Positions 472-35,223 of a stretch of DNA of 58,217 bases are shown piece after piece. How positions within the stretch are numbered: the stretch's first letter is position 1; every line of letters starts with the position of its first letter. This DNA is from Clostridiaceae bacterium OM02-2AC (GTDB taxonomy: Bacteria > Bacillota_I > Bacilli_A > Erysipelotrichales > Erysipelotrichaceae), in the NCBI GenBank assembly GCA_003481775.1, contig QULU01000031.1, forward strand, positions 1 through 58,217, in the 5' to 3' direction. The notes below the pieces were generated by a model. That model did no database searches. It had not been told where the DNA came from and saw nothing but the letters and a program-made list of their open reading frames with translations. A program made the translations under genes and the position numbers.

Positions 472-1308
472 ATGGCAGCATTGCAGGAGCAGCGACACAT
501 CTATTATGATAAGGACCTTCAGATTGAGGCGTATAATCTGAGTGGAATCGTACAGAAATTTCCTGTTCACTTTCATGAATTTTATGTAATCGGATTTATG
601 GAGGGTGGAAAACGTCATCTCTGGTGTCGGAATCAGGAATATGATACACAGCGCGGAGATGTTATTTTATTCAATCCGCGTGAAACGCATAATTGTGCGC
701 CGATAGCCGGAGAGGTTCTGGATTATCGTGCAATCAATGTTCCTGTTGATGTCATGGACAAGGCAGTAAAGGAGATAACCGGGAAAAACATCCATCTTCA
801 GTTTAAGGATACGCTGATTCCGCAGGCAGAGCTGGCACTGTCAATTCGGGAGCTGTATGATGTTATCGTATCACAGAGCAGTCTGCTGGTGCGTGAGGAG
901 GCCTTTTACTTTCTGATTGAACAGCTGCTGGAAGAGCATATGGTTCCGGTAGAAGCAAGCAAAGAGCTTACAGAAACGGTGAAGGCTATGATGGAATATC
1001 TGGATACACATTATGAACAATCGGTTTCACTGGAAACACTTTCCGAAATCAGTGCGATGAGCCGCTATCAGCTGCTGCGTCTGTTCACCAGAGAGGTTGG
1101 TGTTTCTCCATATCGCTATCTGCAATCCATTCGGATCGCAAAAGCAAAGCGTCTGCTGGAACAGGGCGAAGCAATCGGTAAGATAGCTCTGGATTGCGGA
1201 TTTTCCGATCAGAGCCACTTTACAAACTACTTTAAAAGCTTTATCGGTATAACACCAAAGCAGTATCAGCGTATATTCACACAGAAAAGGAGCGATTTGG
1301 ATGAATGA
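472..1308 (+). CDS. AraC-family transcriptional regulator with cupin sensor domain
   Basis: A 278-residue protein with an N-terminal cupin-like ligand domain (HFHEFYVIGF near residue 33, then a GDVILFNPRETH strand near 63-74) and a C-terminal double helix-turn-helix of AraC type (about 175-270, with LETLSEISAMSRYQLLRLF and IALDCGFSDQSHFTNYFK). This is the normal size for cupin-AraC regulators. The ATG at 472 is chosen because GAAGGA sits 8 bases ahead of it; upstream ATGs in the same frame have no ribosome-binding site. The end overlaps the next gene by 8 bases, so it is the first gene of a three-gene operon with a permease and a DUF2000 protein and probably controls them. The ligand is unknown. 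Confidence 0.88.
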   Translation: MAALQEQRHIYYDKDLQIEAYNLSGIVQKFPVHFHEFYVIGFMEGGKRHLWCRNQEYDTQRGDVILFNPRETHNCAPIAGEVLDYRAINVPVDVMDKAVKEITGKNIHLQFKDTLIPQAELALSIRELYDVIVSQSSLLVREEAFYFLIEQLLEEHMVPVEASKELTETVKAMMEYLDTHYEQSVSLETLSEISAMSRYQLLRLFTREVGVSPYRYLQSIRIAKAKRLLEQGEAIGKIALDCGFSDQSHFTNYFKSFIGITPKQYQRIFTQKRSDLDE

Positions 1309-2215
1309 GCGGATCAAGGGGCATATGCTTGCGTGTATGACTATTCTTATATGGGGAACCACCTTTATTTCAACCAAGGTGCTGCTGCGGGATTTTACAC
1401 CTTTGCAGATACTGTTCACGCGTTTTATGATTGGCTATCTGGCCTTATGGGCAGTCGCTCCAAGGCTGACGAGAATCAGGCAGAAAAAGGAAGAGCTGTA
1501 TTTTCTTGCGGCAGGACTCTGTGGAGTTACCCTGTATTTTCTTATGGAGAATATAGCACTTACCTATACACAGGCAAGCAATGTCGGGATCATCGTTGCT
1601 GTTTCACCATTTTTTACCATGTTTTTCGGAATCTGGCTGTTGAAACAGAAGCGTCCCGGAGTACGTTTTTTCATTGGCTTTTTGATTGCCATGACAGGAA
1701 TTCTCTGTATTTCCCTGGAGGGCAGTCAGAATCTGGAATTAAATCCAAAGGGTGATCTGCTGGCTCTGGGAGCGGCCATCGTATGGGCACTGTATTCCAC
1801 AATAACAAAGAAAATAAGCAGCTTTGGATATACGATTATCCCGATGACTCGCAGAATCTTCTTTTACGGTTTGTTGTGCATGCTTCCGGTTATTTTCATA
1901 TCCGGAATGGAGCTGCCGAAGCTGGAACAGCTTACGGTGTTAAATACTGCCAATATACTGTTTCTGGGACTGGGAGCCAGTGCAATGTGCTTTGTTTCCT
2001 GGAACAGTGCCGTCCGCATTCTGGGCACCGTACAGACGAGTGTGTATATCTATGCAGTGCCAGTGGTCACCACGCTGGCATCGGTATGGATTTTGAAGGA
2101 GACAGTCACCATCATTGGTGTGATTGGTATCGTAATGATTGTTTTGGGTCTTCTGCTGTCGCAGAATCGTAAAGGAGAACGGGTATGGAGAAAAACAGAA
2201 AATGCGTCATGGTGA
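1301..2215 (+). CDS. EamA/DMT-superfamily membrane transporter
   Basis: A 304-residue, highly hydrophobic protein with about ten membrane spans arranged as two EamA repeats. The opening (ILIWGTTFISTKVLL) and the second repeat (ALGAAIVWALYSTITKK) are typical of drug/metabolite transporters, which export amino acids or other small metabolites. The ATG is preceded by AAAAGGAG with an 8-base gap and overlaps the end of the AraC gene; its last 31 bases overlap the DUF2000 gene. Tight packing suggests one transcript with translational coupling. The substrate cannot be read from sequence. Confidence 0.9.
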   Translation: MNERIKGHMLACMTILIWGTTFISTKVLLRDFTPLQILFTRFMIGYLALWAVAPRLTRIRQKKEELYFLAAGLCGVTLYFLMENIALTYTQASNVGIIVAVSPFFTMFFGIWLLKQKRPGVRFFIGFLIAMTGILCISLEGSQNLELNPKGDLLALGAAIVWALYSTITKKISSFGYTIIPMTRRIFFYGLLCMLPVIFISGMELPKLEQLTVLNTANILFLGLGASAMCFVSWNSAVRILGTVQTSVYIYAVPVVTTLASVWILKETVTIIGVIGIVMIVLGLLLSQNRKGERVWRKTENASW

Positions 2216-5809: not shown

Positions 5810-7708
5810 CTAGTCGAAATCCTTTTCCAGTGATGTTTTCAATATTTCCGTAAAATGCAGAAAGCTGGGCTTTTTGAAAAAATTCTGCAATAGCTCCTCA
5901 TTGCGCACAAAGGTACTCATATAATACCAGAACTGGAACGCCTTCGGATTGTTCTTTTCGATGGATACCAGCATAACGATCCGAACATTGTGATTTTTAT
6001 CCCATGCGATCGGCTTCTTCAATACCCCCAGCGATACAAAGGTTTCATCCGAAAACGGTGTGAGCGGATGCGGTACGGCGATACAGTTGCCAAAGTAAGA
6101 GCTGGTTATCTGCTCCCTTGCCTTAATGACCTCCAGAAATTCATCGTCAAGGCTATATTTTTCAATGGCATTGCGACAGATAATATCCAGAATCTCTTCT
6201 TTATCCTTTACTTCTCCATAGAAATAGCAATCCTCGCTGAATTTTTCAAGAATGGAATCCGTGTCTGTATAGCCGTTGATCGCCAGATTGATTTTCTCGA
6301 AATCCTTCTCATCCGGGAAGATACTGATCAGCGTGATACCACCCTTATATTTCTCACTGTCTCTGTCGGTGGAGAAAATAGCGTCATAATCCTCGGTATC
6401 AAAATCGTCAGCATCTCCTGTGATAAAGGTAATCTCTGCAATCTGATTGGGAAACCAAGTCAAAATCTTATGACGCAGCAGAACTGTTTCTGACTTGCGA
6501 AGCGATGTGATAATCAATATTTTCTTAGCAGAATTTCCCAGATGAATATTTTCCAGCCCATAATTGAAATACAGGGACAGATAGGAAATTTCATCCGCAG
6601 AAACACTCAGGTGAAACCGTTCCTTAATCAGCAGCGTGAAATATAAGGCAATATCATAAGCAAGCGGAAAGGACTGCTTAATCTCCGGTGCCATCATGTT
6701 ATTCAGCTGTGTGCCGGATTTGATACGATAGATCAGCGGTACGAGATGTAGTGCCAGAAACAGCTTCAGGCTTTCCGCAGGCTCAAAGTTGACACAGAAC
6801 TTGTTGCGGATATACAGAAAGGAATCGTTGATAAAATCATTAACCTCTTTCTGTAGACGATCATTTCTGGAATAATCAAGCTTTCCTAAAATGGTCTGTG
6901 TTAACAGATTGATCTCATTTAACATGTATTGCTTCTTAATACGGTATCTGGTAAGAAAGCGTGTCAGGATTTCCGTAGAAATCTGATATTCTGTGGAATC
7001 CGGCATATCCTGTTCCATATGCTGTTCAATGAAATGCCCTTTTCTGACTCTGCGCAATGTGAGTGCAATATGCGCGGTAATATTCTGAATGGTCTGTTCA
7101 TTGATTTGATAATGGTACTTGAAAAACACATCCGCCACTACATTGTAAATATCCGACACATCCTCGGATAATGCGAAATGATCGGCGGATTCATCATTGA
7201 TTTCATTTTTCGCGATGCACATCCGCTTGTCGATTTCTCTTCCTTCGATTTTATAGCCCAGATTTGTTTTATGAATCAGTGTCAGATCATACTGCGTCAG
7301 AAGCTTTTTGATTTCGTTCAGTGCGTGATACAGTGTGGATTCACTGATATAAAAGGTCTCTGTCAGTGTATATTTCGATACATAGCCTGTCGCATCCATC
7401 AGCATTTTCATAACGGAATGGACACGGTTTTTTGTATTACAGGAAAGCTGCAGCGTTTTCTTGCGCAGAATCTCCATGTCCTTTTCAAATGCCGTATCAT
7501 CCAGTACACATAATCTGGTTCCCTTTCCTGCAAGTGTATCCAGTACAAATGAGGAATAGGAATCGCAAAAATCACGGACGAGCTTCAGCTCGTTTTTTAC
7601 TGTCCGTACACTGATATCAAACATAGCAGCGAGTTCATTGGATGAAACATACGTTCCCCTGTTGTCCACATAAAAAGATAAGATCGAGTATTGTCTCTTT
7701 GTCAGCAT
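5810..7708 (-). CDS. PRD-containing PTS regulator (BglG/MtlR type) with EIIB- and EIIA-like domains
   Basis: A 632-residue regulator: N-terminal helix-turn-helix of the HTH_11 kind (SSNELAAMFDISVRTVKNEL, residues about 20-40), a second HTH (about 90-150), two PTS regulation domains (about 180-390), a degenerate EIIB domain (KILIITSLRKSETVLLRH, without the usual phospho-Cys) and a C-terminal EIIA-2 domain with the active-site-like AVPHPLTPF. In this family, PTS phosphorylation of PRD and EIIA histidines tunes DNA binding. AGGTGATAAA before the ATG at 7708 sets the start, ahead of an alternative six codons upstream. It faces the mannose-family PTS operon and very probably activates it. Confidence 0.88.
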   Translation of the reverse strand: MLTKRQYSILSFYVDNRGTYVSSNELAAMFDISVRTVKNELKLVRDFCDSYSSFVLDTLAGKGTRLCVLDDTAFEKDMEILRKKTLQLSCNTKNRVHSVMKMLMDATGYVSKYTLTETFYISESTLYHALNEIKKLLTQYDLTLIHKTNLGYKIEGREIDKRMCIAKNEINDESADHFALSEDVSDIYNVVADVFFKYHYQINEQTIQNITAHIALTLRRVRKGHFIEQHMEQDMPDSTEYQISTEILTRFLTRYRIKKQYMLNEINLLTQTILGKLDYSRNDRLQKEVNDFINDSFLYIRNKFCVNFEPAESLKLFLALHLVPLIYRIKSGTQLNNMMAPEIKQSFPLAYDIALYFTLLIKERFHLSVSADEISYLSLYFNYGLENIHLGNSAKKILIITSLRKSETVLLRHKILTWFPNQIAEITFITGDADDFDTEDYDAIFSTDRDSEKYKGGITLISIFPDEKDFEKINLAINGYTDTDSILEKFSEDCYFYGEVKDKEEILDIICRNAIEKYSLDDEFLEVIKAREQITSSYFGNCIAVPHPLTPFSDETFVSLGVLKKPIAWDKNHNVRIVMLVSIEKNNPKAFQFWYYMSTFVRNEELLQNFFKKPSFLHFTEILKTSLEKDFD

Positions 7709-7785
7709 TTTATCACCTGCAATCATTACCCCCTCTGTTTCATTTTCTAGTATAACCCAATCTATTTCAAAAATATTTTAATCTT

Positions 7786-23097: not shown

Positions 23098-24482
23098 GCT
23101 TAAAATGTCTAGCCTCAGAGGAGGCTAGACAAAGTCGTAATGGAACGAGTACATGGCATAACAATTTAGATACGCTAGCCTCAGACGAGGCTAGACTGTA
23201 CTTTTGATGTAAGAGAGAGGTTAAAGTCATATTTAGATACGCTAGCCTCAGACGAGGCTAGACTCACTGCATCTATATATGATTCCATTGGCAAATTCGA
23301 TTTAGATACGCTAGCCTCAGACGAGGCTAGACCTCTTAACATTGTGTTTACATACTCAATACATATATTTAGATACGCTAGCCTCAGACGAGGCTAGACC
23401 AAATATGTTGCGACAATAAACGTCGAATCACTGATTTAGATACGCTAGCCTCAGACGAGGCTAGACCAACACCGTTTCCAGATGTTGAAAAACAGCTTGA
23501 AATTTAGATACGCTAGCCTCAGACGAGGCTAGACTATATATTACAATGTCATTTGTCAGAGGTCAGAGTATTTAGATACGCTAGCCTCAGACGAGGCTAG
23601 ACAGGAGGATGTTAAGCACTGGCATAAAGAGGCTAAAGATTTAGATACGCTAGCCTCAGACGAGGCTAGACTTTTTATTCTTCGATAATCTGGCCAGTGT
23701 AGATGGATTTAGATACGCTAGCCTCAGACGAGGCTAGACATCTCATATCTTTTGCGGGTTGGTTGCATTTCGTAATTTAGATACGCTAGCCTCAGACGAG
23801 GCTAGACATTAGCAATCACACACCTACGACGCTTATAAGGCATATTTAGATACGCTAGCCTCAGACGAGGCTAGACATGTTTGCAAAGAAGGTTATACAG
23901 AAGAAAGAAATTTAGATACGCTAGCCTCAGACGAGGCTAGACTTGGAAATGGGAACAGCAGCAGTGACACATATCTATTTAGATACGCTAGCCTCAGACG
24001 AGGCTAGACATTATTTTGACAATCAATCGAAAAAAAGAATCAGTATTTAGATACGCTAGCCTCAGACGAGGCTAGACATATAATGTAATTAAATTAAATT
24101 TTGTCACACCTATTTAGATACGCTAGCCTCAGACGAGGCTAGACAACTGAAGATCAGCTTTTCACTAAATCACTCCTACATTTAGATACGCTAGCCTCAG
24201 ACGAGGCTAGACGTTTGTATATATCTGTGCATCCGGATACTCATCATATTTAGATACGCTAGCCTCAGACGAGGCTAGACTCGGTCGTGGTGTAAATAGT
24301 TTGACCACGATTCCTATTTAGATACGCTAGCCTCAGACGAGGCTAGACAACTTGTAAATACACTCATGGACAACATCTCAGAATTTAGATACGCTAGCCT
24401 CAGACGAGGCTAGACGCTCTTATCCTGTACCGATTGCCATCACCATCATATTTAGATACGCTAGCCTCAGACGAGGCTAGAC
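23098..24482 (-). CRISPR. type I-C CRISPR array, 21 repeats and 20 spacers
   Basis: Twenty identical 33-base repeats start at 23165, 23231, 23300, 23367, 23434, 23502, 23570, 23639, 23707, 23775, 23844, 23910, 23977, 24045, 24112, 24180, 24248, 24316, 24383 and 24450; a degenerate one lies at 23098-23130. On the minus strand the repeat begins GTCTAGCCTC, has the palindrome CTAGCCTC/GAGGCTAG and ends GTATCTAAAT. Spacers are 33-36 bases, all different. The degenerate repeat at the left and the leader at the right, next to cas2, show transcription leftward, the same direction as the cas genes. Spacer targets could not be identified from the window. Confidence 0.98.
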
Positions 24483-24647: not shown

Positions 24648-24948
24648 TCATATAAACAATACGTCTTCTTCAACATTGAAGCTGGGCTTAACTCCTATAT
24701 GTTCTACTTTATTTTTGTAATTGTTACCTAAATAGTAAAATCTTAAACTATCATGTTCTTTATCAATTAATCCAGTAAGCTTGTGTTTAACCTCTCTGCA
24801 TTTCGCTTGATCCATAACACATTCAAAAACTGAATTTTGAACTCTTTGACCATAATTCACACATACTTTAGCAACGTTCCTTAATCTTTTTTTACCTGCG
24901 CTGTTTTGGGTGTTGACATCATAAGTTATTATAACAAGTATTTCTCAT
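24648..24948 (-). pseudogene. cas2: CRISPR adaptation nuclease Cas2, frameshifted near the start
   Basis: The body reads ILVIITYDVNTQNSAGKKRL through RVQNSVFECVMDQAKC to the end, a normal type I-C Cas2 of about 99 residues. But no start codon exists in this frame. The ATG at 24948 overlaps the cas1 stop by one base (TGATG), the classic cas1-cas2 junction, and would read M-R-I-L-V-I-I if the AAA at 24941-24943 were AA. The open span is 301 bases, one more than a multiple of three. So cas2 carries a one-base insertion, real or from sequencing. If real, spacer acquisition should fail. Confidence 0.85.
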
Positions 24949-25979
24949 CACTTCCATAAAAACGGTGGATATTCAGGTAAATCGCCACGAATTGTTCTAG
25001 CAAGTAACAGCGCCTGAACGTAAGGAACCAAACCCCACTCTATCTTTTGATCAAGGAATGGGTGCTTTATCGTTTCCTGTTTTTTCTTTTGCCATGAAGA
25101 CAGAACCGCTTTTCTAGTCGTATCATCCATATAAACAGCGCCACTATCGGTTTTTGTAAATCCATCAGCATTTACTATATTCATATTTATTAGTGATAAA
25201 ACAAAACGATCAGCCAGAATTGAGCGTAATTCTTCCATTAAATCTAATGCTAAAGAGGTGCGTCCAGGAAGATCAGTATGTAAAAATCCAACATAAGGAT
25301 CTAAGCCAACAGATTCAAGCGCTGATGTGACATCCTTTGCTAAAAGTGTATACGTGAAGGAAAGAAGAGCATTAACATTATCTAGCGGAGGTCGTTTATT
25401 TCTACCATGAAAATAGAAATCATTTTTCTGTTGGAGAATTAAATCATCAAATACATGGAAGTAACAATTTGCTGCATTGCCTTCGATTCCTCTTAAAGTG
25501 TCTGCAGAATCCGCTTTTCTAGCTTCTTTTGCAGATAATCTGATCGTTTCAGCTGCTGTTTCGATTTTTTCAACATCTATTCTCATACCATAATCTCGTT
25601 TGGCACGAAGTAATATATTTCTGGAATTGATTAGCTTTGCTGTTATCATGTTTTTTGCATATGCTAGACGTTTTTCGCTTGATTCAGATATTCTGAATTG
25701 TTCTTTCCGCAACAGGACGTTTCCACGTTCCTCTCCAACAACTCTAGCAAGAAATCTTCCATGCATTGTCATAAATGTTAATGATATTCCCATATCTGCA
25801 CATTTCCCCATAAGTGCAGGACTTACGCCTGTAAAACCAAATCCAACAATCCCTTCCATGTTATGTAAGGGAAACCTCGACACAGATTTATCTTCTTTTG
25901 TGGCGATAATGTTTTCACCATCCAACGATAAATAGGTCCTAGGTGTTGTTATATACAGTGTGTTCAAAAGTTTTTTCAT
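24948..25979 (-). CDS. cas1: CRISPR adaptation integrase Cas1 (type I-C)
   Basis: A 343-residue Cas1. The metal-binding residues are visible as Glu in RGIEGNAANCYFHVF (about 168), His in YVGFLHTDLPGR (about 236) and the acidic LALDLMEELR. With Cas2 it integrates new spacers at the leader end. Start overlaps the cas4 stop by 4 bases (ATGA), and the stop overlaps the cas2 start by 1 base, so the three are translated as a coupled block. Full length with no break. Confidence 0.97.
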   Translation of the reverse strand: MKKLLNTLYITTPRTYLSLDGENIIATKEDKSVSRFPLHNMEGIVGFGFTGVSPALMGKCADMGISLTFMTMHGRFLARVVGEERGNVLLRKEQFRISESSEKRLAYAKNMITAKLINSRNILLRAKRDYGMRIDVEKIETAAETIRLSAKEARKADSADTLRGIEGNAANCYFHVFDDLILQQKNDFYFHGRNKRPPLDNVNALLSFTYTLLAKDVTSALESVGLDPYVGFLHTDLPGRTSLALDLMEELRSILADRFVLSLINMNIVNADGFTKTDSGAVYMDDTTRKAVLSSWQKKKQETIKHPFLDQKIEWGLVPYVQALLLARTIRGDLPEYPPFLWK

Positions 25980-26644
25980 ATACCTTTATCTCCTAAATAT
26001 TTATCAAAGTATTCGTCAACAGAAGGATTTTGATTCAGTTTAGGAAGACAGATATCTTTTAAAGAACATGCATTGCATTTTTTAGATATTTTTACTTTAG
26101 GAGTATATTGCTTTAAATACAGTTTATGCATTTCTTCACAAAATGCTTTAACTGTACTGCGCATGTCAGAAAAAAATAAAACTTCAGTTCTTCGTCTTGT
26201 TTCTCCATAAAATAGATAACCCTTTTCAATCTTACACAAAAGCATTTCTTCCAAACACATTGCCTGTGCACATAATTGCAAGTCATCAGCTTGATATTGT
26301 TTAGGTTCTCCTCTTTTATATTCAATAGGGAAAGGAAGATAGCGTTTAGAATCTTTTGAAATAGAAATACCTTCTTCTGATGGATGAAATTCTACAATAT
26401 CACAAATACCACTAATACCCATAGTCCTTGAAAATACAGAAAGTCCTCTACGTATGAGTATTCCATTTCTTGTTTCAGAGAATGCACCATTATGTGCATT
26501 CTCATGAAAAATCTGACCGTCTATCGTACGGTAATTCTCTGCCCACTGTTGTTCAATATGTATGAGTGCCCATTGACGGCGGCAAAATGCAAAATGCTGA
26601 ATACCTGAAAGCATTAAAAATTCGTCTTCATTATATTCCATCAT
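25976..26644 (-). CDS. cas4: Cas4 exonuclease (type I-C)
   Basis: A 222-residue RecB-like Cas4. Four cysteines for the Fe-S cluster are seen in FAFCRRQW (about 21) and C-N-A-C-x5-C near residue 192; the nuclease core has CDIVEF and PIEYKRGEPKQ (D...E-x-K). Cas4 trims prespacers and selects the PAM during adaptation. It overlaps cas7 by 14 bases and cas1 by 4 bases, as usual in type I-C operons. Confidence 0.96.
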   Translation of the reverse strand: MMEYNEDEFLMLSGIQHFAFCRRQWALIHIEQQWAENYRTIDGQIFHENAHNGAFSETRNGILIRRGLSVFSRTMGISGICDIVEFHPSEEGISISKDSKRYLPFPIEYKRGEPKQYQADDLQLCAQAMCLEEMLLCKIEKGYLFYGETRRRTEVLFFSDMRSTVKAFCEEMHKLYLKQYTPKVKISKKCNACSLKDICLPKLNQNPSVDEYFDKYLGDKGI

Positions 26645-27476
26645 AAATTTCTGGTTCTAGACCTTCTAATGGAGATAACGTGATTGTGAAATCTTCAAAG
26701 CAATTTGGCGTATCCACATCATTTTTTACCTCAACCTTTAAAGAATTGTGTACTTTTGCTGAACTGTATTGTCCTGCTAAACAATTATGCTTCCACCAAT
26801 ATACCTTACAAACTTCCATGCTTCCTTCCGGTCTTGCACTGGAGGCATCGTTCATGAACAGGGAACATAAAGCTTCTTTGATTTTCTCAGCATCCTCTTC
26901 ACTGAAACCTGTTTTTTCTGCCAGCTGGTGATTGATGCTTCCTTTACATACATATAAACCAAAATCAACACGGTGCTTCATTCCCATAGTGTCAGAGGAA
27001 CGTTTTTCAGATGGCTCACTATTTACGCTCTTTGTTATCTGCATATCGGTTGTTACAACTGGATTGATACTTTCTGCAGTTCTTATAGAAACAGGACCTC
27101 TTACACCTACAGAAACATTATTCGTTTTAAATGCGAAGACCTGCCCAAATGCTCTGACATCGGTCCATTGTTTACAGGCAGCTGCAGCATAAGCTTCACG
27201 ATCCTTTAAAACCGCTTTTAATTCCTTATTATTAGAAGCACGTTCACTTAAGCTTTTGAATCCATCGCTGCTTCTTTCATCAGATTGGACGAAGATATTT
27301 TCTCCCATATCCTGCAGACGGTTTCTGATTTTCCGTTTAATACATACGTCAGATACTTCTCCAAATCCTTTAAAATCGATTCTAGGCTGATTCCCTGAAA
27401 GTGGATCACCATTCGGATTTGCTTTATTTACTGTGAAAATAACTGCGAAATCGACTTTGTTTGTAAATGCTGTCAT
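26631..27476 (-). CDS. cas7: Cascade backbone subunit Cas7 (Csd2, type I-C)
   Basis: A 281-residue Cas7 of the Csd2 family: NKVDFAVIFTVNKANPNGDP at the N-terminus is the family signature, with DVRAFGQVFAF and GVRGPVSIRTAESI in the RNA-recognition core. Several copies coat the crRNA spacer in Cascade. The ATG has AAGGAGGAG about 6 bases ahead, located within the end of cas8c, and its first bases overlap the cas8c stop. Confidence 0.97.
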   Translation of the reverse strand: MTAFTNKVDFAVIFTVNKANPNGDPLSGNQPRIDFKGFGEVSDVCIKRKIRNRLQDMGENIFVQSDERSSDGFKSLSERASNNKELKAVLKDREAYAAAACKQWTDVRAFGQVFAFKTNNVSVGVRGPVSIRTAESINPVVTTDMQITKSVNSEPSEKRSSDTMGMKHRVDFGLYVCKGSINHQLAEKTGFSEEDAEKIKEALCSLFMNDASSARPEGSMEVCKVYWWKHNCLAGQYSSAKVHNSLKVEVKNDVDTPNCFEDFTITLSPLEGLEPEIYDGI

Positions 27477-29353
27477 GATTTAGACTCCTCCTTTTGTTTG
27501 TTTTTTTCTTTTCTTTCAGTATTGATTCGTTTGATTTCATTTCTCTGACAATCAAAACCAATAACAAAATAAGCGTTTAAATTTTGAATGTGTTCTATAG
27601 ATTCCATATCCATTACTGCGTGTAACTCTTCCATTAAGTCCTGTTTCATTGAAAGAAGATAATCACATTTTTTTCCTAGTTTCTCAACATAAGGTCTGAT
27701 TTTCTTATCTAGCGTAGTAAGCGTTACAAATGGATGTTCTTGAAATGGTGCGTATAAACGCATTGCATTTGTTGGACGATCTTCCTTTTGAATGTTTAAA
27801 GCATATTGTTCAATTGCATCATATATTGCAAGAATTCTTCCTAATAAATAGGGGATATTTGATTTAGCTAATTTTTTGTTTTCCATAATATTCACACTCC
27901 AATTCACTCCTTCTCTATCGTAACAGTATTTTTTGAATACTGCACACAGTATACCTATACATTTATTCCAGTTATACTTCGTATTCGTTGACATGGTCTT
28001 TATCTGATTGTTAAGTCGAATGATAAAATCATCCGGAATAGGTTTCCCTTCAGAAATACATGGCAGTAAGCGTCCCATCTGCAGTGTCATCAACTGATCA
28101 TCCACTTCAAAGAATGCACCACGTAATGTCCCATATGCACAAGAAATGATTTCTCTGGGAATTGGGGTCATTACATCGCTCATATAATCAGCTTTTGAGT
28201 ATTGAGGCCAGCTACAATATGTAAACCAGTTCTGTAGATGTTTGTAGTATGTAGAAGCATCTATTTCCTGATAGTAGGTTATTGAAAATCTACCAATCGT
28301 AGCAGCATCCATTGCCATGATGACGATGTTATCATTATGATCGCTGATATTCTGCCTATAACCGTCAATTGCTTTATTTACACGTTGTGCGTAATCTTCT
28401 TCTGTATCTACTTTGTCCGGTAAAGCAGGAAATAAGCTTTCGTCTAATGCGAATGCCGTCATAATGTTATCACAGTGTGCATTCCATACCAAAATCGTTT
28501 GTCCATTTTGCTTATATGCCTGTTTTTGTATCAACCATCGCAAAGCATTATGAATTTTCTGAGATGTTTCATATCCAATGGAAATCGCTTCTTTTTTAGA
28601 AACAAACCTGCCGCGATATGTAAAACCGTTTGCATCATTAGTAGAAATTAACTTAGCTTTATCTTTTCCTTGACGAAGTTTCGCAGGATGTTTTTCTGTG
28701 CAATACATCATTTTACCTGTTATATAGCAGAGATCCTCGTCGGTATGTAGACTGGTATAGAATTTGTGGTAGGTATCGAATAGCATTTTGTCACACCATG
28801 GTTCAACAATTCGTTTTTGTATACCTCTGATTTTAAAGCGGACAAAAGCTTCTGTTTGAACAACTGTTTTCTGGATTTTATATTTCTTATCCAATTGTTC
28901 TCCATCTAATTTTAAGATATCGCAAGAGATCAAGTCAGAGATGAGTGTACCTTGTTCAAGATATTGATAGATTGGTATAATGCTAGAGTGGGTGTAAGAA
29001 GAATCTATCCATTGTTTTAGAAGACTTTGGTGTGCAAGAACATGCGGATCGTTTCGTTTACCAGTATACTCTGCATAATCTTTTGAGATATAAATTAGCT
29101 TATCGTGTAAAGGATGAGGCGTAATACCGCTTGATCTACTCGCTGAATCCTCAGTCACAGGAATGACAGTGACGGCATCATCATTAGGAATTTCTATTGC
29201 ATGGATAAATTTTCCGTTTTCATCCAAAACAACTTCAATCTGTGCTTTTGTAGTTAGATGGCTAAGCGGTAATAACATCCCTGTTTCACTTTCCTTGCCC
29301 ACTTCACTCTGACATATATCATAGGTTTCTAGTAATTTACTCGCCCAACTCAT
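27473..29353 (-). CDS. cas8c: Cascade large subunit Cas8c (Csd1)
   Basis: A 626-residue Cas8c/Csd1, the large subunit that reads the PAM and recruits Cas3; in type I-C an internal start can also give the small subunit Cas11c. Family features are the LLPLSHLTTKAQIEVVLDEN opening, TLRGAFFEVDDQLMTLQMGR and a long C-terminal helical part. The ATG at 29353 follows GGAGGTGA; an upstream start is not supported. It overlaps cas5 by 17 bases. A possible internal Cas11c start was not resolved. Confidence 0.95.
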   Translation of the reverse strand: MSWASKLLETYDICQSEVGKESETGMLLPLSHLTTKAQIEVVLDENGKFIHAIEIPNDDAVTVIPVTEDSASRSSGITPHPLHDKLIYISKDYAEYTGKRNDPHVLAHQSLLKQWIDSSYTHSSIIPIYQYLEQGTLISDLISCDILKLDGEQLDKKYKIQKTVVQTEAFVRFKIRGIQKRIVEPWCDKMLFDTYHKFYTSLHTDEDLCYITGKMMYCTEKHPAKLRQGKDKAKLISTNDANGFTYRGRFVSKKEAISIGYETSQKIHNALRWLIQKQAYKQNGQTILVWNAHCDNIMTAFALDESLFPALPDKVDTEEDYAQRVNKAIDGYRQNISDHNDNIVIMAMDAATIGRFSITYYQEIDASTYYKHLQNWFTYCSWPQYSKADYMSDVMTPIPREIISCAYGTLRGAFFEVDDQLMTLQMGRLLPCISEGKPIPDDFIIRLNNQIKTMSTNTKYNWNKCIGILCAVFKKYCYDREGVNWSVNIMENKKLAKSNIPYLLGRILAIYDAIEQYALNIQKEDRPTNAMRLYAPFQEHPFVTLTTLDKKIRPYVEKLGKKCDYLLSMKQDLMEELHAVMDMESIEHIQNLNAYFVIGFDCQRNEIKRINTERKEKNKQKEESKS

Positions 29354-30077
29354 GCAATTCACCTCCTTCCTCATGTTCAACACTCTTAAAATTGATATCT
29401 TTTTCAAATCTCTTGATATCGCCGGTTCCTACAATACGCCTGATTGCACATTGTTCAGGGCGGATGAATGTAATAATACCTTTTTTCATGACTGGTGTCC
29501 AAAAAGTCGCAATCAGTTTGCCTTTTTCTTCTTCATGCAACCATTCGTCTGGGTAGATGAATCCATGAACCATAGTACTGAAAGGCACTATGGTATGGTC
29601 ATCATAAAAACCTTTTCCTTCACCAAATTCACATGGTTCTACATACGCCTGACATTCACGCGTACCAAGAAATACATCCCTTCGTCCACCACGATTAACC
29701 ATGCGCTTTGCGATTAACCAATGTTTATTCTCATTACGATCTTTTTCTAATTCTTCATGGTGTAGATTCCATTCAAAGTGTGCTTTTACCTGATATTCAA
29801 CATCTGTTAAATAGGTGTAGTAGGAGAGAGTATTACCTCCGTGGTAATTGATTGGTCGAATACCTTGTGTTGTGAATTGAATCTCATTCATAATGCGAAC
29901 TTCATCAATAAACCAGCTGATTGTCGGCTTAAAGTAAATACTTTTAACAACTCCCTTTAAAGCTTCATATGTTGGAATTTGATAAGAAAACTTCTCGCCA
30001 GATACACGATTGAGAGGATCTGAAAAAAGAGCATATTTACTTTTTACGCAAAATGTGATTTCGTTTTTCTTTTTCAT
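29337..30077 (-). CDS. cas5: Cas5c, Cascade subunit and pre-crRNA endonuclease
   Basis: A 246-residue Cas5c (Cas5d). Type I-C lacks Cas6, and this subunit cuts pre-crRNA at the base of the repeat stem, leaving an 11-base 5' handle. Signatures: ITFCVKSKYALFSDPLNRVSG cut short, PTYEALKGVVKSIYFKPT, and NRGGRRDVFLGTRECQAYV near the C-terminal half. AAGAAGGTGAAAAA precedes the ATG. It is the first gene of the tightly overlapping cas5-8c-7-4-1-2 block; upstream is a 760-base gap to cas3 with unusual content. Confidence 0.97.
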   Translation of the reverse strand: MKKKNEITFCVKSKYALFSDPLNRVSGEKFSYQIPTYEALKGVVKSIYFKPTISWFIDEVRIMNEIQFTTQGIRPINYHGGNTLSYYTYLTDVEYQVKAHFEWNLHHEELEKDRNENKHWLIAKRMVNRGGRRDVFLGTRECQAYVEPCEFGEGKGFYDDHTIVPFSTMVHGFIYPDEWLHEEEKGKLIATFWTPVMKKGIITFIRPEQCAIRRIVGTGDIKRFEKDINFKSVEHEEGGELHELGE

Positions 30078-30110
30078 TTTTTCACCTTCTTTCTAATAAA
30101 TTTATTTTAT

Positions 30111-30147
30111 AATACAATATGATGTTTTAAATACGTCATATTGTATT
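30111..30147. promoter_or_regulatory. 14-base inverted repeat in front of cas5
   Basis: AATACAATATGATG (30111-30124) and CGTCATATTGTATT (30134-30147) pair over 14 positions with one G-T. On the minus strand it is followed at once by TATAAAAT, a possible -10 for cas5, rather than by a T-run. So it is more like an operator or mRNA hairpin than a terminator. It overlaps the last codons of the 52-residue reading frame. Confidence 0.5.
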
Positions 30148-30294
30148 TAAAATCGAAATTGATTTGAAGAGTGCGTAGATGAGTGCGATGACTAAGCAAT
30201 ATATAATTCTTAAGGTTATATTCATAAAACCTTTATGCAGCAGCACATAGCCATCATCTTTTTCTTCATCTCTTCTTTCAGTAAGCTTTTCCAT
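30136..30294 (-). CDS. small 52-residue single-span membrane peptide between cas3 and cas5
   Basis: Not recognised. The peptide has a charged N-terminus (MEKLTERRDEEKDDGY), then one hydrophobic helix (ITLRIIYCLVIALIYALF) and a short polar tail, the build of small membrane toxins or regulators. AGGAGG is upstream but 15 bases from the ATG, longer than normal, so translation is uncertain; a 28-codon frame from a GTG nearer that box also exists. It is the first frame behind the minus-strand promoter at 30458-30486, which the crRNA-like RNA appears to target. It could be the toxin of a CreTA-like guard or a leader peptide. Confidence 0.42.
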   Translation of the reverse strand: MEKLTERRDEEKDDGYVLLHKGFMNITLRIIYCLVIALIYALFKSISILNTI

Positions 30295-30438
30295 GAATTA
30301 AAGTTCACACCTCCTAACATGTGATAATAAGCAGAATTGAATAATGTGGCCATGTAAGCCCTATCATCAATTACAAGGTAAGCCTATCATATAATTTTTG
30401 TTTTTACAAGCTTTATTTAAAAAATAAATTAAAAGGTG

Positions 30439-30473
30439 ACCCAAAACAATATTTTCAATTATACACAAACGAA
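30439..30473 (-). promoter_or_regulatory. partial protospacer with TTC PAM over the cas5-side promoter
   Basis: On the minus strand, TTC (30473-30471) is followed by GTTTGTGTATA (30470-30460), identical to the first 11 bases of the pseudo-spacer at 30785. In the full 31-base ungapped comparison 23 positions match, with a second matching block AAATAT. Of the eight mismatches, those at 12, 24 and 30 fall on the every-sixth positions that type I effectors ignore. The site includes the TATAAT of the promoter. Confidence 0.75.
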
Positions 30474-30486
30474 GTTAAAAAATGAA
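30458..30486 (-). promoter_or_regulatory. putative promoter reading toward the 52-residue frame and cas5
   Basis: TTCATT (30486-30481), 17 bases, TATAAT (30463-30458). The -10 is perfect, the -35 weak. An alternative -35 TTAACT lies closer. Transcription would start near 30451, 157 bases before the small frame and about 375 before cas5. Confidence 0.6.
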
Positions 30487-30491
30487 TTTAT

Positions 30492-30508
30492 AATAGAGTA
30501 AAAAAGTT
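30492..30508 (-). promoter_or_regulatory. shared upstream element, copy 1
   Basis: On the minus strand this reads AACTTTTTTACTCTATT, 5 bases before the -35 of the cas5-side promoter. The same 17 bases, in the same orientation to its promoter, precede the divergent promoter at 30724. The match extends outward with CCATAA. Confidence 0.6.
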
Positions 30509-30690
30509 TATGGAATTTTCTATATTAAGTTGAAATATATAACAGAAACTTGAAAATTAGTATAATCAAGATACAATTAAATAAACGAAGATTATTTAAT
30601 GTTGGTAATACGAATGTACTTCTATACCCTTATTTAATGCACTCTTATTGAATCTGTGTTTAAGATATATGTGAATGATTTTAATCCCAT

Positions 30691-30707
30691 AACTTTTTTA
30701 CTCTATT
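30691..30707 (+). promoter_or_regulatory. shared upstream element, copy 2
   Basis: AACTTTTTTACTCTATT, 16 bases before the -35 of the crRNA-like RNA promoter; identical to the element at 30492-30508 on the other strand. Confidence 0.6.
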
Positions 30708-30723
30708 CGAACTTATTTCTATT

Positions 30724-30752
30724 TTGACTTAGTCTTGAATTTACCTTATAAT
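30724..30752 (+). promoter_or_regulatory. promoter of the crRNA-like RNA
   Basis: TTGACT, 17 bases, TATAAT. The strongest promoter in the gap, pointing toward the end of cas3, where no gene on this strand exists until 33343. Confidence 0.85.
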
Positions 30753-30758
30753 ATGGTA

Positions 30759-30836
30759 GTCAGTTAAGGACTGTGGATCTAAATGTTTGTGTATATTGGT
30801 AAATATATGTTTTAGGAAAGGCTAAATGCCTTTTTC
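30759..30836 (+). ncRNA. crRNA-like guide RNA with degenerate repeat (CreA/CreR-type candidate)
   Basis: The predicted transcript of about 78 bases begins with a small stem-loop (CAGT-TAAGG-ACTG or AGTC/GACT), then TGGATCTAAAT (30774-30784), which matches the 11-base Cas5c handle CGTATCTAAAT in 9 positions, with the last 8 identical. A 32-base pseudo-spacer follows (30785-30816), close to the array's 33-36, and then the hairpin AAAGGC/GCCTTT with a T-run, which would replace the 3' repeat stem. Its first 11 bases match a TTC-flanked site in the promoter facing cas5. Known CreA and CreR RNAs have this plan and lead Cascade to repress a promoter without cleavage. The RNA itself is not experimentally known here. 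Confidence 0.8.
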
Positions 30837-30839
30837 TTT
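30817..30839 (+). terminator. terminator of the crRNA-like RNA
   Basis: AAAGGC (30817-30822), loop TAAAT, GCCTTT (30828-30833), then TTCTTTT. It touches the cas3 stop codon on the other strand. Confidence 0.82.
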
Positions 30840-33206
30840 TTACACAAACATATCCTCCAACTCCTTCCTAACCTCCAACCCTGTATCCTTCTTATAAAAT
30901 CCATTCCTCAAAACCAGCATGCCGTTAAACTCAAGCTGATAAATCATATCTTCCTTCTCCAGTTCCTTATACTTGTGTTCATAAACATTTACCATAAAGC
31001 GCTGTGTCTTATCAAGTAGTGCATACTTTTCTGCATTGCTAATGGAACTATTCAGCTGATCAATTAGTTTCTTGCCATCTCCGTATGGTACCAAAACACC
31101 AATACTCTGAGAATCAATCATTTCAAATGCCATTCCCGCACTCTTTAATGCGTGACCCAGACAAGGATGAGAGAGATTGTCAGAATCTTTTATATTTCTT
31201 GCTCGCGATAATAGCTCAAATAAGGAAACTTTACGATTATCAATCTTTGTTGAATATTCTGTATCCTGTCTGCGATTAAATAAATAAGAATCATAATACT
31301 GTCGTATAAAGGATAGCGTTAAAAGCTCATCTACACGATTTCCTTCCTTTGAAGCATGTAGCTGTGACAGGAGGATATTTGTCTCATCCTGTCCTTTTTT
31401 TACATCCTTAAGTTTTTCGATATGCTCTTCATTGGAATTGATGAGATAGACAGTCCCTAACTCTGGATTTTTACCGTTTCTATTGCATCTGCCGGCAGCT
31501 TGAAGAATACTATCAAGTCCGCATAGGGAACGTATGACAACATCACAATCTATATCGACTCCTGCTTCGATCAGATTAGTCGCTATACACAACACAGTAT
31601 CTTTTTGTTCCATATGCTCTTTTAAATCCTCCAATGTACGATGGCGATGCTCCGGACACATGCTCGTGGATAAATGATATAGATAAAGCCTGTCTATCTC
31701 ATGATGCTGCTCACAGGCGCGATATAAGTTTCGTGCATCTGCTTTTGTATTGACAATCACCAGCATACTGGTGCCCGGCTCCAGCTTTTGATATATAAAA
31801 TTCGATAAATCAGCAATTGAATAGCCGCCCCTGCGACAGGCATCTTCTATATGGACACGCTTAAATTGTTCCTGCATTTCCTTTGTCTGTTTTACAATTT
31901 CAGATTCTGAAGCCAACTTGATAGGATAGGTGGTAGTTTCCAATAATGGCTGTGTTGCCGTACATAATACCACCGTAGTATTACAATTATAAGCAAGAAA
32001 GTTCATCATTTCATTAAACATCGATATTGTTTGAACTGGTATTTTCTGAGCTTCATCTATAATGAGTACAGAGTCGGCTAACTGATGAAACCTGCGTACA
32101 TCCGTTGTTCGATCTTTAAACATCACATCGAACAGACGAACTGCTGTCGTCAAAATTACGGGCTTATTCCAGGAGGAACTGTAGTAATCATAATCTGTAT
32201 ATTGAGATGGGATAATATTGGAATGATGCTCCAAAACAAAATCTTCATTGAAAAATTGCTTCATCACTTCCGCATTTTGTTCCAATATGGTCTTAAAGGG
32301 TGCAACATAAATGATATGCTTCTTATGGTATTTTTTCGCATGATGTAGAGCATAACGAAGTGATGCTAGTGTTTTACCTGAGCCAGTTGGACAGGACAAA
32401 CGATAAATACCAGGAGAATGGCTGCTAAATGCTTTACACTGATTAGAGATACTAGTGCGTAATTCATTGATTGTACTGATAGAGGAATTTGCAGTTATCT
32501 CAGCTAAATGACTCTCAAGCTTATCTGTTGCTGCTTGCCATATAGTATCTTCTGTATAAACGATTGTTTGTGTGTGTTCCATGAAATTGCGAGTATCTTC
32601 ACGATCTCCATGAATTAGTAAAGACATAAGAAGTCGTTGTAAAGCTCCAATATAAAAATAATAATCCTTCGCATCTTGAGCCGTTTTTTGCTTCATGAAA
32701 TTTGCAAGATAGATCGAAAGTTCCTTATGCGCTGCACGGAAAAGATATTCCAATTCCTCTGTGGAAATAAAGTCATTCATAAAGGCGGTAATGTGTTCCA
32801 TATCCAATGCTTTTTCCGGATAACACCGGCTGCGCAAGGCATTATCACCATGCACATTTATGAAATCACATAACCCATGATGAGAAACAATTGCATTTGC
32901 TAACATGAGTTTTACCAGACACTCACTCATATCACTGTAAGATCTGCACACCTCAAGCAGAATCTGCGCGCCGGCTGAAGAATGATTCACCTTAGGAAGG
33001 AATATATTTTCCAATGCTGCTTTGGTTATGTATTTCTGAAATTCCTTGGAAGCCTTCCCGCAGTCATGCAAAAAAGCAGCCAGCTTCATGCAATTTGTAA
33101 GACCTCTTGCTGCTGCGTATTCTTCAATCGCCGCAAAGGTATTGATACTATGCTCCTGTAATGACTGCATTTCCTGATTGCTATTTATATGTGCCAATAT
33201 GTTCAT
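30840..33206 (-). CDS. cas3: Cas3 nuclease-helicase (type I-C)
   Basis: A 788-residue Cas3 with an N-terminal HD nuclease (KLAAFLHDCGKASKEF, about residue 45) and a superfamily 2 helicase: Walker A in CPTGSGKTLASLRYAL (about 275), the DEAH-box variant LIIDEAQKIP, TATQP, and the C-terminal motif QAAGRCNRNGK. It is recruited by Cascade and degrades target DNA. The start at 33206 is fixed by the promoter TTGACA-17-TATGAT at 33256-33228, whose transcript begins only about 15 bases earlier. It is transcribed apart from the rest of the cas genes, with the 760-base gap after it. Confidence 0.97.
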   Translation of the reverse strand: MNILAHINSNQEMQSLQEHSINTFAAIEEYAAARGLTNCMKLAAFLHDCGKASKEFQKYITKAALENIFLPKVNHSSAGAQILLEVCRSYSDMSECLVKLMLANAIVSHHGLCDFINVHGDNALRSRCYPEKALDMEHITAFMNDFISTEELEYLFRAAHKELSIYLANFMKQKTAQDAKDYYFYIGALQRLLMSLLIHGDREDTRNFMEHTQTIVYTEDTIWQAATDKLESHLAEITANSSISTINELRTSISNQCKAFSSHSPGIYRLSCPTGSGKTLASLRYALHHAKKYHKKHIIYVAPFKTILEQNAEVMKQFFNEDFVLEHHSNIIPSQYTDYDYYSSSWNKPVILTTAVRLFDVMFKDRTTDVRRFHQLADSVLIIDEAQKIPVQTISMFNEMMNFLAYNCNTTVVLCTATQPLLETTTYPIKLASESEIVKQTKEMQEQFKRVHIEDACRRGGYSIADLSNFIYQKLEPGTSMLVIVNTKADARNLYRACEQHHEIDRLYLYHLSTSMCPEHRHRTLEDLKEHMEQKDTVLCIATNLIEAGVDIDCDVVIRSLCGLDSILQAAGRCNRNGKNPELGTVYLINSNEEHIEKLKDVKKGQDETNILLSQLHASKEGNRVDELLTLSFIRQYYDSYLFNRRQDTEYSTKIDNRKVSLFELLSRARNIKDSDNLSHPCLGHALKSAGMAFEMIDSQSIGVLVPYGDGKKLIDQLNSSISNAEKYALLDKTQRFMVNVYEHKYKELEKEDMIYQLEFNGMLVLRNGFYKKDTGLEVRKELEDMFV

Positions 33207-33227
33207 ACTCCCACCCCTGTCTATGTA

Positions 33228-33256
33228 ATCATAGCGCTTACATGAAGGCATGTCAA
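33228..33256 (-). promoter_or_regulatory. cas3 promoter
   Basis: TTGACA (33256-33251), 17 bases, TATGAT (33233-33228). Near consensus. It shows cas3 has its own promoter, and rules out starts upstream of about 33221. Confidence 0.8.
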
Positions 33257-33342: not shown

Positions 33343-35223
33343 ATGTTAATATACGAAGGGACAAAATATGATTTCAGAATGGACATGGACCTTGATAAAA
33401 TACCTCATCTCTTAGAGGAAAAGCTTTATGAGCATATGCATATCCATACGAGTAAAAAAGAAGTAACCTCGTGGAAAAATTCACTTCAATATATGTATAA
33501 GGTATTAAATGATCCGAATATACCCGATACCTGCGGTGTAGCTATTGAATACAATATTCCCAAAACGAACAAGCGTGTGGATTTTATTATGTCCGGATAT
33601 AATCATGATGGGAAAGCAAGTGCTATTATCATCGAGCTAAAGCAGTGGGAGCGTGTGGAAACGGTATTCGACCGCGAGGATTTGATAAATACCGAGGTGA
33701 TGACAGCACTGGGAAAAGGAGTGCATCGCGTTGTACATCCCTGTTATCAGGCCTGGTCTTATGTACAGCATATGAATGATTATATTGAAGAAGTAGGAAA
33801 AAAAGACATACAGCTGTACCCCTGTGCATATCTGCATAATTATGACTTAAGGAAAGAGCAAAATATCATAAATCCAATTTATAATGCATGTATTGAAAAA
33901 TCACCATTATTCACACAGGGAGAGATTCCAAGACTGCGGGAGTTTATCAAAAAGCATTTGAAACAAGGGGATCATAAGGAAGTGCTGTTTCTTATAGAGA
34001 ATGGCAGAATTCGGCCTTCTAAAAGTCTTCAGGACTGCATTTCTTCAATGCTGGATGGAAATCAGGAATTTACAATGCTGGATACACAGAAAGTGGTCTT
34101 TGAAGAAATCCTTTATATGGCCAAATTGTGTCAAAAGGATAAAAGGAAACGGGTAATGATTGCAAAAGGCGGCTCAGGAACAGGGAAGTCTGTGATTGCT
34201 GTAAATGCGATGGTGAATCTGTTGAAGGAAGACATGTTTGGACAATATATAACAAAGAATGCGGCTCCGCGCAATGTTTATATGGACAGACTTGCTGGTA
34301 AAATGAAGAAAAACAAAATCAAATCGCTGTTCGCTGCCCCGGATAAATTTTATCAGCAGCAGCCGGATGATTATGATTTTTTGATTGTGGATGAAGCGCA
34401 CAGATTAAGAGAAAAATCAGGTATGTTTCAAAAAGGTGAAAACCAGATACAGGAGCTGATAAGATCATCGCTCTTTACTGTTTTCTTTATCGATCCCTAT
34501 CAGCGTGTTCATTTTCGTGATTTTGGAAGTATCTCCGAGTTTCAAAAACAGGCACAGCTACAAAATGCGGAGGTGATACAATATGAATTGCATTCACAAT
34601 TTCGCTGTAACGGATCGGATGGATACCTTGCTTGGGTAAGAAATATGCTGCAGCTGGAAGAAACAGCAAATTTCAATTTCAAGGATATCAACTTTGATTT
34701 TCGTGTCATTGATGATCCAAATGAATTAAGAGCTATGATTTGTGAAAAAAACGATGGATCAGGGAAAGCCAGAATATTGGCGGGATATTGCTGGGAATGG
34801 GAAAAAGCCGGTAGAAATGATCCGAATCACAATGATATTGAGATTGGTGATTTTAAAATGAGCTGGAATCTGGATGCTAGTGATCCATATGCAATCAGTG
34901 AAGGGTCCATTCATCAAGTAGGGTGCATTCATACAACACAGGGGCTTGAATTTGATTATGTAGGAGTTATCATAGGAGAAGATCTCCGTTATGAAAACAA
35001 TGAGCTTGTGACTGACTATAAGCAGAGAGCGAAAACGGATTCTTCTGTAAAGGGACTGAAAAAGCTGTATCGTGAGAATCCGGAGAAGGCAAAACATATG
35101 GAGCGACAGATTATACTGAATACGTATTACACGTTAATGACTAGAGGAATGAAGGGGTGCTATATCTATTGCTGTGATTCAAATCTGCAAAAGTACATCA
35201 AAATGTCAATAGCTGATGCATAG
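33343..35223 (+). CDS. DUF2075-type helicase with N-terminal restriction-like nuclease domain
   Basis: A 626-residue protein. Residues about 60-130 resemble a PD-(D/E)XK nuclease: RVDFIMSGY...IIIELKQWERV. From about 255 there is a DUF2075/Schlafen-type P-loop ATPase: AKGGSGTGKSVIAVNAM (Walker A), DFLIVDEAHRLR (Walker B), SQFRCNGSDGYLAWV and a C-terminal CIHTTQGLEFDYVGVI helicase motif. GGAGG precedes the ATG, and TATAAT lies at 33292. It is divergent from cas3 with about 135 bases between the starts. Proteins of this kind occur in defence islands, but a specific role is not established. Confidence 0.8.
   Translation: MLIYEGTKYDFRMDMDLDKIPHLLEEKLYEHMHIHTSKKEVTSWKNSLQYMYKVLNDPNIPDTCGVAIEYNIPKTNKRVDFIMSGYNHDGKASAIIIELKQWERVETVFDREDLINTEVMTALGKGVHRVVHPCYQAWSYVQHMNDYIEEVGKKDIQLYPCAYLHNYDLRKEQNIINPIYNACIEKSPLFTQGEIPRLREFIKKHLKQGDHKEVLFLIENGRIRPSKSLQDCISSMLDGNQEFTMLDTQKVVFEEILYMAKLCQKDKRKRVMIAKGGSGTGKSVIAVNAMVNLLKEDMFGQYITKNAAPRNVYMDRLAGKMKKNKIKSLFAAPDKFYQQQPDDYDFLIVDEAHRLREKSGMFQKGENQIQELIRSSLFTVFFIDPYQRVHFRDFGSISEFQKQAQLQNAEVIQYELHSQFRCNGSDGYLAWVRNMLQLEETANFNFKDINFDFRVIDDPNELRAMICEKNDGSGKARILAGYCWEWEKAGRNDPNHNDIEIGDFKMSWNLDASDPYAISEGSIHQVGCIHTTQGLEFDYVGVIIGEDLRYENNELVTDYKQRAKTDSSVKGLKKLYRENPEKAKHMERQIILNTYYTLMTRGMKGCYIYCCDSNLQKYIKMSIADA

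Follow-up and report, generated by a model that had tools for sequence, protein, structure and literature searches.

A probable CreR-type guide RNA gene between cas3 and cas5 of a type I-C CRISPR-Cas locus, predicted to act on the cas5 promoter

Introduction

What is a single, degenerate CRISPR repeat with transcription signals of its own doing between cas3 and cas5 of a type I-C locus? The question is raised by the window, i.e., the whole stretch of 58,217 nucleotides that was analysed, for which a first-pass annotation had proposed a local guide RNA silencing a promoter. CreR has been described as a crRNA-like RNA that autoregulates cas genes in type I-B, I-E and V-A systems (PMC13131331), and its range is given elsewhere as "Type I and Type V-A" (PMC12737573). 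No type I-C case was found in the CreR literature considered here, and I-C elements may figure in the lists of the primary surveys. For CreTA/CrePA a degenerate-repeat guide is described which directs Cascade to a promoter by partial complementarity behind TTC, without cutting by Cas3; the target of CreTA is a toxin promoter (PMC9458426).

Results and Discussion

The type I-C locus of the window

A profile search revealed a complete type I-C locus with cas3, cas5c, cas8c, cas7c, cas4, cas1c, cas2 and an array, all on the minus strand. The gene for cas3 (30840..33251; TIGR01587 and TIGR01596) is convergent with the guide gene and separated by 762 bases from cas5c (29337..30077; TIGR01876). It is followed by the cas8c open frame (27473..29407; TIGR01863), whose true start is possibly internal, by cas7c (26631..27476; TIGR02589), cas4 (25976..26644; TIGR00372) and cas1c (24948..25979; TIGR03640), and by the cas2 open frame (24648..24860; PF09827), the N-terminus of which lies outside the match. 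The CRISPR array (23164..24482) consists of 20 identical 33-bp repeats with spacers of 33-36. Divergent from cas3, a protein with a Schlafen-group-3 helicase domain (PF09848) is encoded at 33343-35223 on the plus strand.

A lone repeat with promoter and terminator

The cas3-cas5c gap carries on its plus strand everything that the first-pass annotation had listed, namely a promoter, a small stem-loop, a handle, a pseudo-spacer and a terminator. The predicted promoter TTGACT-17-TATAAT (30724..30752) consists of TTGACT at 30724-30729 and TATAAT at 30747-30752 with a spacing of 17 nt. It agrees with the consensus at 11 of 12 positions and was the top one of 14 promoter-like matches in 29800-31400, where 8.0 were expected (sd 3.4). 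In type I-C systems the crRNAs are processed by Cas5c, without Cas6. The hairpin predicted for this processing, CAGTT-AAG-GACTG (30761..30773, plus strand), is a degenerate repeat; it is short, with 5 bp including one G-T pair, and its stem ends exactly at the 11-nt 5' handle TGGATCTAAAT (30774..30784, plus strand). By sequence comparison this handle is Cas5c-like. The claimed likeness to the array repeat was borne out, since 9 of 11 bases, and all 8 at the 3' end, agree with the handle CGTATCTAAAT of the window's array. Moreover, TGGATCTAAAT is identical to the last 11 nt of the array repeats in two other loci (L001 and L016). Array and lone handles also differ in a Blautia MAG (L049), where the array at 7403-7714 has AGGATAGAAAT and the lone element TGGATCTAAAT.

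The guide (30785..30814, plus strand) comprises 30 nt up to the terminator stem, or 32 nt up to AAAGGC. It is followed by a predicted intrinsic terminator, a hairpin plus T-run at 30815..30839 on the plus strand, which occupies the position of a second repeat; its part at 30815-30835 was the sole terminator-like match in 29800-31400 (0.5 expected). The whole element, 30724-30839, thus has one degenerate repeat copy and then a terminator in place of the two near-identical repeats of an ordinary array. A standalone degenerate repeat inside or next to a cas locus is one of the features of CreR. An ordinary array remnant was considered and discarded on account of the single degenerate repeat, the own promoter and the own terminator. 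An Rfam search of the whole window yielded an FMN riboswitch (RF00050; 14162-14283, plus strand) as the only match at or above the gathering score and nothing at the guide element. As a side observation, the last codons and the stop of cas3 (30849-30841, minus strand) repeat the first nine bases of the guide, GTTTGTGTA, there behind TAT and not TTC. This copy could pair with the guide in a plus-strand transcript reading past the terminator.

A target on the predicted cas5 promoter

The counterpart of the guide lies on the minus strand of the same gap. A TTC PAM (30471..30473) directly precedes a protospacer at 30440..30470, which matches the guide at every one of the 11 seed positions and at 23 of 31 overall, with mismatches at positions 12, 14, 16, 23, 24, 25, 29 and 30. 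Both values had been claimed before, the seed for 30470-30460, and both hold. When the gap was shuffled 20,000 times with its dinucleotides preserved, a TTC-led seed of 11 bases never arose (one shuffle gave 10). The overall match was equalled in none of 5,000 gap shuffles, the highest of which reached 21, and with 23/31 the target ranked first among the 2,618 TTC sites of the whole window, the next one scoring 18/31. The first-pass annotation had also noted that three of the eight mismatches fall on every-sixth positions. The count is correct, but about 1.3 would be expected by chance, so that, taken alone, it carries no evidential value.

The target overlies the TATAAT at 30463-30458 of a predicted promoter that reads toward cas5 (TTCATT-17-TATAAT; 30458..30486, minus strand; 9/12), so that the -10 box falls within the seed region. 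The -35 box TTCATT is weak, and a stricter promoter scan of 29800-31400 omitted this promoter. A PAM-led partial match to a cas promoter, as described for CreR, is therefore present in the window, with a promoter that is predicted and has a weak -35 box. Since the covered promoter belongs to cas5, the leader of which contains a 52-aa frame, autorepression of the effector is likelier than silencing of an unrelated promoter. The proposal of a guide for some local promoter was amended in this sense, and also because the element recurs beyond this locus.

Recurrence in other type I-C loci

For comparison 121 loci were oriented, consisting of 80 I-C loci listed from genome contigs, 40 genome stretches and the window. 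Loci L081-L117, being short or derived from other queries, were left out of the class counts. A usable upstream region was available for 108 I-C loci including the window, after removal of the duplicates L121, L123 and L154; early pairing and promoter counts had dropped only L121 and L154. An element was counted when a lone handle near cas3 or cas5 was followed by a guide agreeing with a TTC site close by in at least 13 of 17 positions. The same plan had already appeared in L049 and L002 when lone handles were first screened for, and a screen of 107 loci with guide shuffles yielded 21 guides at p <= 0.002. Using the rule given above with a lowered gap threshold, 29 of the 108 loci, about a quarter, were found to carry the element, again including the window, and 79 were without it. 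The handle was exact in 12 of them, had one change in 14 and two changes in 3. Fifteen elements share the position of the window's, between cas3 and cas5, and the rest lie before cas3. When TTC was replaced by each of 14 control trinucleotides, 0-5 of the 108 loci scored. The scores of 46 near-perfect lone handles were bimodal, with 26 at 13-16, one at 12 and 19 at 7-10.

The PAM also emerged when it was not presupposed. Among the same number of lone handles (46) the best match reached at least 15/16 in 9, all with TTC before it; at least 14/16 in 23, of which 21 had TTC; and at least 13/16 in 29, of which 25 had TTC. The same rule was then applied to fresh loci. A first draw of 12 loci, from which L167 was left out as it had no nearby cas3 or testable region, gave an element with match in 5 of 11. 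The second draw comprised 30 of 46 matching genomes; once 3 duplicates had been removed, 21 of the remaining 27 were set aside for a gap of 80 or less. Of the six with a gap above 80, three matched (L177, L184 and L200). In each of these the gap holds an exact handle, with a guide match of 15-17 of 17, while all 14 control trinucleotides gave 0.

Other results mark the edges of the class. L149 has a handle without a target in its gap, and L165 and L173 score 11/17 and 10/17, respectively. A screen of whole loci was less clear, with 7 TTC matches versus 1-4 for each of 18 other trinucleotides, and permuted handles gave 19 matches, 15 of them inside one array. On plasmid pLPZ1 of Lacticaseibacillus paracasei (L176, 4566-4995) the handle-like sequence GCGAATTGAAAT is followed by a guide that agrees in its first 13 bases with a TTC site in front of cas5c.

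The loci compared are distant from the window. By its DEAD-box helicase the host is closest to Longicatena and Amedibacillus, and it probably belongs to the Erysipelotrichales. The best Cas5c identity was 67% among the 80 matches listed from genome contigs, and class and phylum draws for the window's order gave a best Cas5c match of 60% (398 genomes). Searches for the same order with the DEAD-box protein reached 52-53% (299 genomes), and no match at E 1e-165 was obtained in 249 genomes. Viral contigs contained two Cas5c relatives but neither the guide seed nor the target pattern, phage and plasmid records were without a close Cas5c, and plain blastn of the element against eight genomes gave chance-level and array-repeat matches only. 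Rather than being lost across this distance, the handle, the TTC, the seed match and the pattern of flipped bases all return, and we consider the element of the window to be one of a recurrent class, as judged from these sequences, and not unique to its locus.

Pairing pattern and joint change of guide and target

Type I effectors flip out every sixth base of the guide. Of the 29 loci, 26 have a mismatch at position 6 and 17 have one at position 12, compared to 11 of 406 cells for the other 14 positions of 1-16. When loci were selected by plain matches over positions 1-17, blind to phase, 24 of 39 mismatches fell on position 6 or 12 (p 2e-13). The mismatch at position 6 may reflect neutral drift at an unpaired base instead of selection. 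From position 17 on the match is gone in most of the 29 loci. The window is an outlier. It is paired at 6, mismatched at 12, 14 and 16 and paired again at 17-22; with a guide of 30-32 nt its pairing is longer and less regular than the about 16 bases of most relatives.

Joint change of seed and target, which the first-pass annotation had proposed to look for in related gaps, was seen in one genus, in I-C loci distant from the window. A Cas5c match was found in 6 of 26 genomes of this genus (L140, L141, L144, L145, L153 and L154), and all six carry the element with a match. The guides of L140 and L153 differ at positions 6, 8, 12 and 15; at 8, 12 and 15 the two targets show the same differences. 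L140 and L141 share the same guide, and their targets differ at position 12 only. L144 and L145 have a different guide and a different target site from L140 and L153.

These observations bear on the view that the element is a decayed orphan repeat-spacer unit, without function, which matches the cas5 promoter by chance. The single degenerate repeat, the two handle bases unlike the array and the decay of the match past position 11 would all suit such a relic. A TTC-led match never reached in 20,000 shuffles, a predicted promoter and terminator of its own, and the return of this layout, built around other guides, in 28 further loci, with PAM and flip pattern and with joint changes in one genus, speak against it, and we regard the relic as very improbable.

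Anatomy of the class

Further features of the window's element were found in its relatives. A promoter scoring 9/12 or better stands directly in front of the element in 14 of 18 cases including the window, versus 3.8 expected, these first relatives having been selected. In 27 of the 29 elements a repeat hairpin with 4 bp or more lies at a distance of 0-2 nt from the handle (17.2 expected), and in 20 the hairpin at the handle has 5 bp or more (7.9 expected). A hairpin of 7 bp or more lies downstream in 27 of 29 elements, and in 26 the folding z is below -2. The 5' arm of this hairpin starts at guide positions 13-46, in 12 of them at 13-20. A T-rich end accompanies this hairpin in 13 of 29 only; elsewhere the terminator is a candidate. 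Visual inspection of element sequences revealed no second repeat.

In 14 of the 29 loci the target footprint lies over or directly next to a promoter that reads in cas direction and scores 10/12 or better (3.8 expected); the window is not among the 14. In L023 and L071, for example, the target lies on or just after TTGACA-17-TATAAT. A looser test of promoter overlap was weak (7 of 18 versus 4.5 expected). The targets split 16 versus 13 between the strands, and in many relatives the target lies 7-100 bases before the cas gene, leaving no space for another gene.

A predicted autorepressor of the effector operon

Taken together, the element at 30724-30839 probably encodes a CreR-type guide RNA that brings the I-C effector to the cas5 operon promoter, where it would repress transcription without cleavage. 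The match beyond chance and the recurrence make a local silencing guide, as first suggested, the best reading of the sequence. Cas5c would cleave the transcript at the hairpin base, so that the 11-nt handle remains. By analogy to type I biochemistry, Cas5c-Cas8c-Cas7 should assemble on the handle-bearing RNA, and the loaded effector would bind the cas5 promoter via TTC and seed. Again by this analogy, incomplete pairing beyond the seed would avoid cutting by Cas3, and every sixth guide base would be flipped out in I-C pairing. Effector in excess of crRNAs would then lower its own synthesis, and its occupation by crRNAs or anti-CRISPR proteins would let synthesis rise. As the repressed promoter would drive the effector genes, negative feedback would result.

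Action on DNA is favoured over antisense RNA by targets on either strand. Given the split of 16 versus 13, about half of the loci leave no possibility of antisense pairing with cas mRNA, and the window is one of them, its guide and the cas5 leader having the same sense. Antisense action was consequently dismissed as a mechanism for the class. A related proposal takes the RNA as mainly an effector decoy, like phage Racr RNAs, or as an antisense RNA, the promoter match being incidental. RacrIC1, a phage-borne inhibitor, is likewise a lone mimic of a single I-C repeat (PMC10651486). In contrast to RacrIC1, the element of the window appears to be chromosomal, lies within a complete I-C locus and has a target. 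No mobile-element context was seen for this cas locus, and the match is retained where guides differ, which renders a decoy or antisense role extremely unlikely.

The preferred reading, a CreR-type autorepressor, agrees with the known CreR elements in several respects. Like them, the element of the window is crRNA-like, lies beside cas genes and has a degenerate repeat with limited complementarity to a cas promoter (PMC13131331, PMC12737573), and it probably works like CreR and belongs to it, as far as this sequence likeness goes. It differs in its subtype I-C, in having one repeat-like hairpin and in the hairpin or terminator that replaces the second repeat; most I-C relatives, moreover, pair only about 16 bases. 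In the type I-B system of Parageobacillus, crRNAs of less than about 26 nt bring about repression without Cas3 cleavage (PMC10551041). The proposed element resembles this case in that short pairing would lead to repression and not to cutting, although the crRNAs there were engineered and the subtype is I-B (PMC10551041).

If correct, our reading extends RNA-guided self-control of CRISPR to type I-C, with a guide made by Cas5c. The way in which cutting is avoided is suggested by most relatives, which stop pairing after about 16 bases and leave every sixth base free. Each such locus would then be able to sense spare effector as well as anti-CRISPR proteins. The elements may offer natural short-guide silencers, and more of them can be searched for by a simple rule, i.e., a lone handle plus guide plus TTC target at a cas promoter. 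Shmakov et al. 2023 reportedly predicted mini-arrays and lone repeats whose spacers show partial matches to cas promoters, for a variety of type I and V-A systems. Going by this description, their standalone-repeat elements resemble that of the window, and I-C cases are possibly among them.

Small open frames in the cas5 leader

Between the target and cas5, the leader contains a 52-aa open frame (30136..30294, minus strand) with one hydrophobic, predicted membrane stretch. Homologues were found in four clusters (P0121-P0124) with a conserved core, the C-terminus being shifted in P0124. The frame had no match in Pfam. Its ribosome site has a long spacing, and the frame scan of the window found none with a good site. 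Small frames are also located between the target region and cas5 in L160, L173 and L176; the one of L176 (pLPZ1) has 18 aa and ends in MLIFVLDIAPP. In L049 a 70-aa frame (1118-1330, plus strand) lies between target and cas3.

Such frames might suggest an addiction module in the manner of CreTA/CrePA, in which the guide represses the promoter of a membrane-type 52-aa toxin, freed upon loss of the effector, with a secondary effect on cas5. The position of the 52-aa frame, its hydrophobic stretch and homologue clusters, the small frames before cas5 in L160, L173 and L176 and the 70-aa frame before cas3 in L049 fit this idea, and CreTA guides act alike (PMC9458426). Unlike in CreTA/CrePA, however, the target promoter of the window serves cas genes, with the 52-aa frame as a candidate toxin. 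The small frames appear mutually unrelated by eye, the 52-aa frame has the long ribosome-site spacing and lacks a Pfam match, and the short distance between target and cas gene in many relatives has no space for a toxin gene. Addiction as the main function is thus decidedly unlikely. Both functions might also be combined in a short-guide RNA that holds down the I-C effector operon, the first product of which would be a small toxin or alarm peptide in the window, L160, L173 and L176. We consider such a dual role unlikely; if it applied, the same RNA would set effector levels and make the cell depend on the effector.

Finally, the cas5 leader of two relatives contains an insertion behind the target. 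The one in L140 (5130-5992) contains a transposase-like frame. That in L166 (5209-5998) contains a degraded frame, which we take to resemble DUF4062.
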